Shown: positions 3,690 to 6,805 of the stretch, piece by piece
Position numbering within the stretch: the stretch's first letter is position 1
Layout: every line of letters starts with the position of its first letter
Source of the DNA: an uncultured Gammaproteobacteria bacterium
GTDB lineage: Bacteria; Pseudomonadota; Gammaproteobacteria; DRLM01
Direction of reading: 5' to 3'
DNA length: 41,259 nucleotides
NCBI GenBank assembly: GCA_947259075.1
Contig: CAMYKQ010000043.1
Location: 1-41,259, forward strand
Notes under the pieces: generated by a model
The model's input: only the letters and a program-made list of their open reading frames with translations
The model's database searches: none
Told to the model about the DNA's origin: nothing
Made by a program: the position numbers and the translations under genes

Positions 3690-5264
3690 ATGACCGACAT
3701 CCACCAACACCGCATCCTCATACTCGACTTCGGTTCGCAATACACCCAGCTCATCGCCCGCCGCGTGCGCGAGGCCGGGGTGTATTGCGAATTGCATCCC
3801 TACGACATGGACGAGGCCGCGCTGCGCGCCTTCAAACCCAAGGGCATCATTCTATCCGGCGGGCCGGAGTCGGTGACCCTGGGCGAAACGCCGCGCGCGC
3901 CGCAATGCGTGTTCGACCTCGGCGTGCCGGTGCTGGGGATTTGCTACGGCATGCAGACCATGGCGCTGCAATTGGGCGGCGCGGTGGAGTCATCTTCGCA
4001 CCGCGAATTCGGTTATGCCCAGGTGCGCGCGCGCGGCCATTCGCAATTGCTGCGCGACATCGAGGATCACACCACCGTTGAAGGTTTTGGCCTGCTCGAC
4101 GTATGGATGAGTCACGGCGACCGCGTCACGCAATTGCCGGCCGGTTTCAAGATGATCGCCAGCACCGACGGCGCGCCTCTGGCGGGCATGGCCGACGAGG
4201 GCCGTCATTATTACGGCCTGCAGTTTCACCCCGAGGTGACCCACACCCGCCAGGGTGAGCGCATCATCAATCGCTTCGTGCATGAGATCTGCGGCTGCGC
4301 CAGCGAATGGAATCCCAGCAATATCATCGAAGAAAGTATCGCCCAAATCCGCGCGCTAGTGGGTGACGACGAAGTGCTGCTAGGACTCTCCGGCGGCGTC
4401 GACTCCTCGGTGGTGGCGGCGCTGTTGCACCGCGCCATCGGCGATCAACTCACCTGCGTCTTCGTCGATAACGGTTTACTGCGGCTGCACGAAGGCGATC
4501 AAGTGATGGCCACCTTCGCTAAGCACATGGGCATACGCGTCATCCGCGTCAACGCCGAGCAGCGGTTTCTCGACGCATTGAAGGGCGTTGCCGACCCGGA
4601 GCACAAGCGCAAGATCATCGGCAATCAATTCGTCGAAGTCTTCGAGGAAGAAGCCGCCAACTTGGCGAATGCGCGCTGGCTGGCGCAGGGCACGATCTAT
4701 CCCGATGTCATCGAGTCCGCCGGTGCCAAGACCGGCAAGGCCCATGTCATCAAGACCCATCACAATGTCGGCGGCTTACCCGCGGCGATGCGCATGAAAT
4801 TGATCGAGCCGCTGCGCGAGTTGTTCAAAGATGAAGTGCGCAAGATCGGCGTCGAGCTGGGTTTGCCGCACGACATGGTCTATCGCCATCCCTTCCCCGG
4901 ACCAGGCTTGGGCGTGCGCATTCTCGGTGAGGTGAAAAAAGAATTCGCCGATCTGCTGCGCCGCGCCGACGCGATTTTCATGGAAGAATTGCACAGACAC
5001 GGCTGGTACGAGCAAGTGAGCCAAGCCTTCACCGTGTTCCTGCCGGTACGCTCCGTCGGCGTGATGGGCGACGGTCGCCGTTATGATTACGTGGTTTCCT
5101 TGCGCGCGGTGCAAACCATCGATTTCATGACCGCCGTCTGGGCGCCGCTGCCGTACGAGCTGCTGGGTCTCGTCTCCAATCGCATCATCAACGAAGTGGA
5201 CGGCATCTCGCGCGTGGTCTACGACGTGTCGGGCAAGCCGCCGGCGACGATCGAGTGGGAGTAG
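3690..5264 (+). CDS. guaA: GMP synthase (glutamine-hydrolysing)
   Basis: 524 residues from ATG 3690 ([20 protein letters not shown]); an in-frame ATG at 3639 lies inside the palindromic repeat and was rejected. The enzyme converts XMP to GMP with ATP and glutamine. The N-terminal class I amidotransferase domain has the nucleophile in GICYGMQ (Cys85) and the QFHPEV histidine and glutamate. The ATP pyrophosphatase domain has the PP-loop [15 protein letters not shown], and the C-terminal dimerisation domain ends in the nearly universal IEWE. The last 15 bases (5250-5264) reappear in altered form at 6791-6805, marking this 3' end as a likely integration site. No clear Shine-Dalgarno precedes the start. 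Confidence 0.99.
5250..5264 (+). other. Putative attachment-site copy at guaA 3' end (left)
   Basis: ATCGAGTGGGAGTAG, the last codons of guaA (Ile-Glu-Trp-Glu-stop). Its partner at 6791-6805 is ATCGAATGGGAATAA, a 12/15 match that encodes the same four residues and a stop. The 3' end of guaA is an established target of tyrosine-recombinase elements in several bacteria. The identity of this copy as an att site is inference. Confidence 0.5.
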
Positions 5265-5445
5265 CCTGATTTCGTAACGAATTGAAAAATAATAATAAAA
5301 CAACTACAATCTACAATATAATCTGCATCATCAATGGCATTTTTTATGGTATTTGCCGCCTGTTGAAGCTAGAAAACGGCGATACCATGAGAGGCGGATT
5401 GGTGTTGTCATGGTATTGATGACGTTCAGATTTCTCTTCTCGACG

Positions 5446-5472
5446 GGCGTGATTATGGCCCATAATCACGCC
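5446..5472. promoter_or_regulatory. Perfect palindrome upstream of fic, possible operator
   Basis: GGCGTGATTATG at 5446-5457 is the exact reverse complement of CATAATCACGCC at 5461-5472, with a 3-nt centre. A related half-site, GGCGTGAATAAG, follows at 5490-5501 next to the -10 box. The arrangement suits a dimeric repressor, for instance autoregulation by the winged-helix end of the Fic protein; that is inference. Confidence 0.55.
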
Positions 5473-5501
5473 AATATTAACTGTAATATGGCGTGAATAA
5501 G

Positions 5502-5510
5502 TGCTAAAAT
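5502..5510 (+). promoter_or_regulatory. Extended -10 box of fic, probable leaderless start
   Basis: TGCTAAAAT at 5502-5510 matches an extended -10 (TGnTATAAT). The ATG at 5517 lies 6 nt after it, so transcription would begin at or next to the A of the start codon. No Shine-Dalgarno is present, which agrees with a leaderless message. Confidence 0.5.
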
Positions 5511-5516
5511 CGCGCC

Positions 5517-6662
5517 ATGAAATGGATATGGCAACAGCCCGACTGGCCGGGTTTTCGCTATGACAAGCGTGCGCTCGAAGACCGGGAACTTGAATTTCGC
5601 ATAAACTCAGAGCGTCTGGCCGGCCGCTTTGAGGTACTGCCAATGGCGTCCCAAGAAGATGCCACGATCGATTTGATGCTTTCAGAAGCCATCAAAACCA
5701 GCGCCATTGAGGGCGAGGATCTGGATAGAGAATCGGTCAGGTCATCTCTACTCTCTTTAATTACATCGGATACGCTACCAGACAACTCAGACCAGAAAGC
5801 GGCAGGGGCCGCGATGCTGCTGGTGGACGTTCGTAAGAACTGGCAAACATCGCTGACACATGATCTGCTGGGCAAGTGGCAATCCATGGCTGTCCCCGAA
5901 CAGCGCTACACGCCTATTCTGCGAGGTGCATACCGCAACGATCCTTCGCCAATGCAAATAGTGAGCGGGCCTTACGGCCGGGAAAAGGTTCACTATGAAG
6001 CCCCGCCAGCAACTCAGGTGCCCGACGAAATGACGAGATTCATCGACTGGTACAACAAGATCAGCCCTTCGAAAGGTGATAAAAAGATACCAGGGATTGC
6101 CCGAGCAGGTATTGCACACCTCTGGTTCGAGGTGATTCATCCCTTCGATGATGGGAATGGGCGAGTCGGTAGGGCGATTGCTGACCATGCGCTTTCGCAG
6201 TCTCTCGGCTATCCGACCACGGCTTGTCTTGCCACGGCGATAGAGGGAGACAAAAAATCCTATTATCTGCAACTGGAGAAAGCGAGCCGTGGAAGCCTGG
6301 ATGTTAATGACTGGCTTGATTACTTTGCCGATAGGGTCATCAAGGCACAGGAAATTGCCAGGGAAGAAGTGGACTTTGTGTTGGCCAGGACACGTTTCTA
6401 CGAAACCTATGGCGATCAGCTGAATGAGCGGCAGGCCAGGATGGTGGCGCGTGTATTTGCTGAAGGTCGCAAGGGCTTTGAAGGCGGGATAACGACCAGA
6501 AAATATGAAGCGATTACCAGGTGCTCCAACAGAACGGCCAGCCGAGACCTTTCCGATCTGGTTGCGAAGGGAATCATCATCCCGCTACCGGGTGGTGGTA
6601 GAACCACGCGTTATGAGTTAACGAGCGTTAAACCGGCTGTGCAAGGTCTGATGAAGCAATGA
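5517..6662 (+). CDS. Fic family protein with N-terminal DUF4172 and C-terminal winged helix
   Basis: 381 residues. Fic enzymes transfer AMP or related groups from nucleotides to hydroxyl side chains of target proteins. The N-terminus (MKWIWQQPDWPGFRYD) is typical of DUF4172. The inhibitory-helix motif T-x-x-x-E-G is at Thr61-Glu65-Gly66 (TSAIEGE). The catalytic loop is complete, HPFDDGNGRVGR with His208, so the enzyme is probably active and self-inhibited. Residues ~300-380 hold a winged-helix-like region (TTRKYEAITRCSNRTASRDLSDLV) that could bind DNA, including the palindrome upstream. Base composition is lower in GC than the neighbours, and the gene sits between guaA and tadA inside a putative integration remnant. 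Function as toxin, defence factor or stand-alone regulator cannot be decided from the sequence. Confidence 0.93.
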   Translation: MKWIWQQPDWPGFRYDKRALEDRELEFRINSERLAGRFEVLPMASQEDATIDLMLSEAIKTSAIEGEDLDRESVRSSLLSLITSDTLPDNSDQKAAGAAMLLVDVRKNWQTSLTHDLLGKWQSMAVPEQRYTPILRGAYRNDPSPMQIVSGPYGREKVHYEAPPATQVPDEMTRFIDWYNKISPSKGDKKIPGIARAGIAHLWFEVIHPFDDGNGRVGRAIADHALSQSLGYPTTACLATAIEGDKKSYYLQLEKASRGSLDVNDWLDYFADRVIKAQEIAREEVDFVLARTRFYETYGDQLNERQARMVARVFAEGRKGFEGGITTRKYEAITRCSNRTASRDLSDLVAKGIIIPLPGGGRTTRYELTSVKPAVQGLMKQ

Positions 6663-6790
6663 TTTTCTTCGGGCATTGGGGTTTTTGATGATAATCGGCA
6701 ACACAACTGAGCACGGTATTTTTCATGGTATTACTGCATACCCAAAAAACTAAGTTATTGATACAAAAGTGTAAAAATGGCTCGTTTGCA

Positions 6791-6805
6791 ATCGAATGGG
6801 AATAA
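6791..6805 (+). other. Putative attachment-site copy (right), displaced guaA 3' end
   Basis: ATCGAATGGGAATAA encodes Ile-Glu-Trp-Glu-stop, the C-terminus of GMP synthase, yet lies 1.5 kb beyond guaA and just before tadA. It matches the guaA end at 5250-5264 in 12 of 15 bases, and all three differences are G to A at wobble or stop positions. Upstream of it there is no further guaA similarity. This is what an element that replaces the gene's 3' end on integration leaves behind. Confidence 0.5.

Follow-up and report, generated by a model that had tools for sequence, protein, structure and literature searches.

We propose that positions 5250-6805 of the window, the whole analysed stretch of 41,259 nucleotides from an uncultured gammaproteobacterium, constitute a non-autonomous mobile gene cassette inserted at guaA and moved by a GIsul2-type integrase from another element, a reading to which we give a probability of roughly 0.85. 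The segment forms a 1.54-kb unit made up of a guaA-tail core, a left end, one intact Fic gene, a right end and a second core. The target gene guaA (GMP synthase) lies on the plus strand at 3690-5264, as defined by its open reading frame (ORF) and Pfam GATase and GMP_synt_C matches, with a possible ORF start at 3639. Its last codons and stop form the left attachment core, attL (5250-5264, plus strand), which includes the published 8-bp site GAGTGGGA (PMC7775301), and the second guaA-tail copy forms the right core, attR (6791-6805, plus strand), with one change within that site. The left end, of type A, occupies 5265-5430 on the plus strand; it was recognised by a left-end profile (match 5238-5428, E 1e-48) and carries three arm-like octamers, ATGGYATT, as direct repeats with first bases at 5334, 5346 and 5410. 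The right end (6694-6804, plus strand) was matched by a right-end profile and by the right-end model R1, and contains an arm octamer (start at 6725) and, on the minus strand at 6751-6763, an exact match to the integration host factor (IHF) consensus. Both profiles were built from the ends of other genomes, the window having served as the initial query for gathering them while being absent from the profiles themselves; R1 was built from 40 sequences with the window among them. Between the ends, ORF and domain evidence places a single gene, Fic/DUF4172 (5517-6662, plus strand, 381 aa), in agreement with the earlier sequence-only reading of this segment.

The two cores, ATCGAGTGGGAGTAG at the end of guaA and ATCGAATGGGAATAA at 6791-6805, are identical at 12 of 15 positions, the three mismatches all falling at third codon positions, and both encode Ile-Glu-Trp-Glu-stop. 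Direct comparison thus confirmed the repeat that the sequence-only reading had reported, and when both strands of the whole window were searched for matches of at least 12/15 to the guaA tail, just these two sites were found. The match alone is only moderately unlikely and so weak by itself, since 12/15 was reached in 8 of 400 dinucleotide shuffles of the 2 kb after guaA. A chance repeat was considered and ruled out by the conserved ends: we accept an attachment-site duplication because conserved sequence adjoins each core copy. The right copy ends in GGGAATAA, like guaA in the same-genus genome G002, and the left copy in GGGAGTAG; this fits an element having replaced the last guaA codons, although other relatives are different. 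The segment had also been described as lower in GC than its flanks, which holds against guaA (0.46-0.55 versus 0.59-0.65) but not against tadA and the downstream region (about 0.49-0.54).

To locate uninterrupted sites, we searched for guaA in 37 genomes and fetched 30 guaA loci, the window's own counted. The gene tadA (tRNA adenosine deaminase), which in the window follows the cassette at 6849-7334 on the plus strand, lay within 100 bp of guaA in 10 of the 30 loci, including G002 (one of two same-genus genomes) and the same-family genomes G003 and G005. It was 0.7-0.9 kb away in three further loci and absent from the examined stretch (up to 1.5 kb) in 17. Empty sites with guaA directly followed by tadA, as had been predicted, are therefore real, and G002 and G003 each hold a single guaA-tail copy genome-wide, which rules out the second copy as a conserved tadA leader. 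G001, the second same-genus genome, has the 3' part of Fic and the right end on a contig other than that of guaA, with 86% homology over window positions 6005-6801 that stops inside the core, the sequence beyond being different; the boundary of the cassette is sharp. In E. coli, the guaA 3' region (L158, 1830-2640) was matched in 5375 genomes, with one place covering at least 80% of it in 4532; it was interrupted or incomplete in the other 843, of which the two inspected held a prophage and an integrase island. Partial guaA fragments were also seen several kb past an intact guaA, directly before tadA in L129 (11221-11481) and about 1.2 kb after tadA in L035 (4029-4346).

When 35 left and 51 right ends were aligned, strong conservation was seen beside the guaA-tail core, and mean column identity reached 85% over about 100 bp among 40 right ends. 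The octamer ATGGTATT occurred 2.0 times per left end and 1.6 times per right end (0.02 and 0.01 in shuffles), and an exact match to the IHF consensus was scored in 14 left and 9 right ends, as opposed to about one in shuffles. Repeats and IHF-like sites flanking a core resemble, by analogy, a lambda-type attP, a layout that would fit the arm-binding domain of guaA integrases. After a rough sorting of 150 junctions with duplicates kept, the left ends following the core fell into types A (59), B (40), C (10) and others (41), and in some loci coreless junctions joined the arm of a right end to that of a left end. Type B was considered as a marker of ISCR elements and does not hold as a general one, as none of four proteins scanned near other type-B ends (L079, L080, L101, L106) was a transposase; a type-C left end had no match in E. 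coli. By eye, the right-end consensus shows a hairpin in which mismatches are frequent.

The Fic gene recurs widely. A genome scan yielded 78 loci, some sharing a genome, of which 16 were dropped (below 65% identity or no hit at E 1e-10); the remaining 62 carry Fic at 65-95% identity, full-length in 48 and with an intact frame in 46. Hosts include Acidithiobacillus ferrianus, Sedimenticola, Thiodiazotropha, Pseudomaricurvus and Spiribacter. Wherever a locus also held guaA, this gene lay upstream of Fic on the same strand in 30 of 31 cases, the exception (L106) matching just 44 residues. Fic was closer to the window's copy than guaA was in 24 of the 26 loci with both (exceptions L123 and L133); in A. 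ferrianus the identities to the window were 95% for Fic and 56% for guaA. The ratio of nonsynonymous to synonymous substitution rates against the window Fic was 0.08-0.17, with a median of 0.11 over 31 equal-length copies. Judging from these comparisons, the Fic gene has spread horizontally and is kept under selection. Across the 78 loci, all 100 right-end and 87 left-end profile hits (187 in one orientation) were on the Fic strand. The expectation that the same Fic gene would be found between guaA copies elsewhere was borne out in many hosts, where it stands downstream of guaA between guaA-tail cores.

We then defined a junction as a right end plus a core with at most 5/15 mismatches, or the guaA end itself, and removed duplicate and near-identical loci. 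Forty-five loci had at least two junctions and gave 72 non-redundant intervals, which range from 706 to 16,621 bp with a median of 2.4 kb; one bounded interval was present in 30 of these loci and two or more in tandem in 15, with six junctions in two loci. Fic occupied 29 of the 72 intervals, and 16 of these 29 were 1.43-1.63 kb long. Cargo was named from part of the interval ORFs. It comprised toxin-antitoxin, defence and metabolic genes, among them RelE and PIN toxins, AbiE, HipA, DUF4143 ATPases, Gabija, Wadjet in an 8.2-kb unit, a TOTE primase, cytochrome b561 with a metallo-beta-lactamase-fold protein, pyruvate:ferredoxin oxidoreductase, LigB/GST/LysR genes and, in a 16.6-kb unit, cytochrome-d1, NnrS and Crp-type genes. 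Since cassettes also occur in nearly closed genomes, with Fic in G107 (one contig) and Gabija in G267 (two contigs), they are not merely an assembly artefact.

At E 1e-4, the right-end model matched 38 of 369 gammaproteobacterial genomes, representing 34 of 272 genera. In 19 of the 38, the right end was on the guaA contig, always downstream and on the guaA strand; these 19 include all three genomes with one or two contigs (G107, G151, G267), and the weak or distant cases among them are G374, with partial matches, and G358. An exact pattern search of viral_contigs returned 0 hits, and the window left end had no plasmid match. A cassette right end was found in 3957 of 72,556 plasmid records and in 1632 of 5426 E. 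coli genomes, the listed hits being mostly annotated repC; from one Salmonella record and PMC9376610, we read these matches as sul2 context.

That Salmonella record, a genomic island with the right end upstream of sul2, came from a right-end search of phage records. A single right-end profile picks up both the window (E 5e-23) and the sul2 end of Salmonella (E 3e-31). Among environmental ends, the right end of the Fic cassette in L110 comes closest to the sul2-side end, with 94.8% identity, and the next best reach 92.9-93.9%; the window's own right end stands further apart, at 81% identity to its nearest relatives. At the other CR2-sul2 boundary, upstream of the ISCR2 transposase gene, a guaA-type core leads into a type-B left end, which is present in environmental arrays as well. 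According to PMC9376610, guaA is the insertion site of GIsul2, whose integrase mobilises, in recA- E. coli, not only GIsul2 itself but also the CR2-sul2 unit, which has no integrase; the att cores that delimit this unit lie near the ISCR2 transposase gene and 304 bp upstream of sul2. A contig filed as Acinetobacter phage MD-2021a (L155, 3494-3644) has a right end on the downstream side of genes for thymidylate synthetase, dihydrofolate reductase and deoxynucleoside kinase; after its core comes the left end that is also found at ISCR2 in L154.

For the GIsul2 integrase, a search through a presumed resolvase gene led to a different resistance region; the integrase came instead from the guaA region of E. 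coli. The guaA island found there (L190) carries an integrase, AlpA and Trb genes, and its right end matches at E 3.5e-8. We label this integrase GIsul2-like from its neighbours and from a relative in G265. The G265 relative is 88% identical and lies in an element that has an ISCR-type transposase and a right end 99% identical to the sul2 end. Relatives at 82-88% identity were present in G265 and G358, in both cases about 310 bp behind guaA and with right ends on the contig of the integrase and guaA. A local profile seeded with Xer and IntI sequences detected nothing at E 1e-4 in the scanned loci, the best match at a loose cut-off being E 0.08 at the end of L116. As such a profile could miss P4-type integrases, we also used tblastn with two guaA integrases and a P4-type integrase profile over 1.6 Mb. 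The latter recovered all five unseeded P4-type controls (E <1e-90), plus a XerC and the IntI-like gene; among array loci it matched only L200, L201 and a stump in L031, and it detected no integrase in the Fic-bearing loci. In G001, roughly 30-68 codons from the start of such an integrase survive as a stump behind guaA, which suggests that a GIsul2-like helper was probably once present in the window's genus.

We infer the following route from these similarities. The two cassette ends would be a lambda-type attachment site split in two, in which arm-like (C)ATGGTATT repeats flank a guaA-tail core on either side, with IHF-like sites in between. Another element would provide a GIsul2-type tyrosine integrase, which would cut the cassette out as a circle. 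Integration of this circle at the 3' end of guaA would rebuild the last guaA codons, and the former ones would remain as the right core. Repeated insertion at such cores would build tandem arrays in a single orientation. Mobilisation in trans rests on the matching ends and on the published experiment with the sul2 unit (PMC9376610), and on this analogy the suggestion of a minimal, single-Fic cargo mobilised in trans gains support.

Several observations weigh against this route. The PF00589 matches of the window genome are XerC, XerD and one IntI-like gene only, and no relative of the guaA integrases was found there at E 1e-60 (5 of 8 candidates scored); because of this, the cassette may be stranded in its present host. 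Close integrases occur in 2 of the 369 genomes, compared with 38 for right ends, and 8 of the 10 genomes with an integrase relative at E 1e-60 (those eight at 37-58% identity) have no right end at E 1e-4. Within the 8-bp site, the window's two cores are not identical. Of 59 usable loci, only 28 have a recognised right end in the 400 bp that follow Fic, and a recognised left end precedes it in only 34 of 54. Exact IHF sites are limited to the minority of ends counted above, and in the window one is present in the right end and absent from the left. Linkage to guaA was not seen in half of the 38 genomes (in 12 guaA was on another contig, and 7 had no guaA match at E 1e-60), and 74 kb separate the right end from guaA in G358.

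Other origins of the segment must be weighed against these points. The sequence-only reading had called it a remnant, in which case a large guaA island with its own integrase would have been deleted down to Fic and two ends, as a cis-mobilisable element (CIME) that was never mobile as such. The lack of a guaA-type integrase in the window genome would agree with such decay, as would the integrase stump in G001 together with its truncated Fic and right end on another contig, the description of CIMEs that keep their att sites (PMC5704250), and the 13 of 29 Fic-bearing intervals that exceed the compact unit length. However, the compact arrangement of left end, Fic and right end recurs complete in 16 of 29 non-redundant intervals, with 46 of 62 frames intact; repeated independent decay to the same 1.5-kb unit is hard to accept, and we regard a remnant as unlikely. 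Still less probable is an integrase-free gain and loss of cassettes through homologous recombination at their shared ends and cores. Coreless arm-arm junctions (for example in L084, L085, L090, L092, L101 and L102) are what exchange between repeated arms should leave behind, but many junctions retain the core and sharp ends, orientation is uniform, the empty guaA-tadA site provides just about 15 bp of homology, and the sul2 unit depends on integrase at the same site (PMC9376610).

The IntI-like recombinase encoded in the window genome and in G001 might alternatively move the segment as an integron-type cassette, and PF00589 matches of similar span, judged by span alone, occur in several array-bearing genomes. 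Against this, the scanned loci held no Xer/IntI-like match at E 1e-4, and the junctions consist of guaA-tail cores, arm repeats and IHF-like sites; we consider this explanation very improbable, the least credible of those weighed here. Separately, the IntI-like recombinase genes of the window genome (L073, 1441-2625) and G001 (L075, 1441-2859) encode an N-terminal extension and adjoin what, by eye, seems to be the same dehydrogenase gene.

A cassette moved in trans by a GIsul2-type integrase has partial counterparts among known systems. The closest is GIsul2/CR2-sul2, which shares the target, the core, an integrase-less att-bounded unit (PMC9376610) and a sul2-side end 92.9-94.8% identical to the best environmental right ends; the window unit differs in having one Fic gene and a type-A left end, and no ISCR transposase, resistance gene or adjacent integrase element. 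That guaA is an island hotspot for P4-type integrases, with GAGTGGGA in the repeat, was already known (PMC7775301), and guaA islands carry a P4-type integrase and AlpA (Song 2012, as cited in PMC7775301). They likewise insert at the guaA 3' end but have their own integrase, the example in PMC7775301 being conjugative and 28.5 kb long, whereas the window cassette has no integrase, AlpA, replication or transfer gene. Tandem accretion and CIMEs have also been described (PMC5704250); CIMEs are att-bounded and free of integration genes, but are presented in that source as decay products of integrative and conjugative or mobilisable elements, while the compact guaA unit recurs intact in many hosts. 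Integron cassettes are similarly small, often single-gene units, arranged in one orientation and in tandem at one site with the recombinase outside the cassette. Unlike them, the guaA units use a site made of a guaA-tail core and arm-like repeats, reach 16.6 kb, and showed no IntI-like gene at the arrays.

Full-text literature searches, judged by title or abstract start, found no paper on small guaA cassette arrays. To our knowledge, the CR2-sul2 resistance unit is the single prior case of a trans-mobilised guaA unit. Those searches likewise turned up no account of a family of small guaA cassettes with common ends, or of where the sul2 unit stands within it. The Fic cassette of the window is one member of this large environmental family, whose cassettes have similar ends, frequently lie in tandem and are seen in about 1 in 10 sampled gammaproteobacterial genomes. 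In a broader view, which we hold to be somewhat more probable than its opposite, the guaA 3' end hosts an integron-like system of Gammaproteobacteria based on a P4-type integrase, in which integrase-less cassettes of 0.7-17 kb with shared ends accrete in arrays as a pool of toxin-antitoxin, anti-phage and metabolic genes and owe their mobility to GIsul2-like elements that visit the genome and act in trans, CR2-sul2 being one cassette of this environmental pool that reached pathogens. If so, the sul2 unit would have a natural setting, a second cassette-array principle would stand beside integrons, and the right end of about 100 bp would be a sequence handle for gathering defence and toxin-antitoxin genes. 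The movement of single defence genes without a recombinase of their own would become a simple question for an excision assay.

Regarding the cargo itself, the window Fic protein has intact HPFDDGNGRVGR and N-terminal TSAIEG motifs, and the catalytic HPFx(D/E)GNGRxxR and inhibitory (S/T)xxxE(G/N) motifs are present in 47 of 47 intact Fic copies, the window included. It matches the Fic family protein of PDB 8cil (E 1e-76), SoFic 3eqx (E 7e-5) and the PADLOC SoFic model (E 5e-37), and shares with SoFic-like proteins the DUF4172-Fic architecture and both motif types. Upstream of the gene, a perfect 13-bp inverted repeat (5446-5472) is a probable operator. GGCGTGA boxes are conserved ahead of Fic in other cassettes; they average 1.84 per 110 bp in 55 Fic upstream regions (0.009 in shuffles), with at least two in 35 of them. 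We infer an autoregulated, self-inhibited class II AMP-transferase related to SoFic, which probably serves as a stress or anti-phage module. On the other side of the gene, the insertion may have changed the tadA leader; an in-frame ATG at 6777, inside the cassette right end, would lengthen TadA by 24 residues (6777-6848). In 10 of 54 Fic cassette copies, the window copy not among them, a conserved insert of about 70 bp separates the promoter from the start codon. It was seen in L076 (9929-10000) and also in L077, L078, L079, L080, L082, L083 and L090, and in L076 it holds a perfect inverted repeat formed by GCGGCACAT and ATGTGCCGC.

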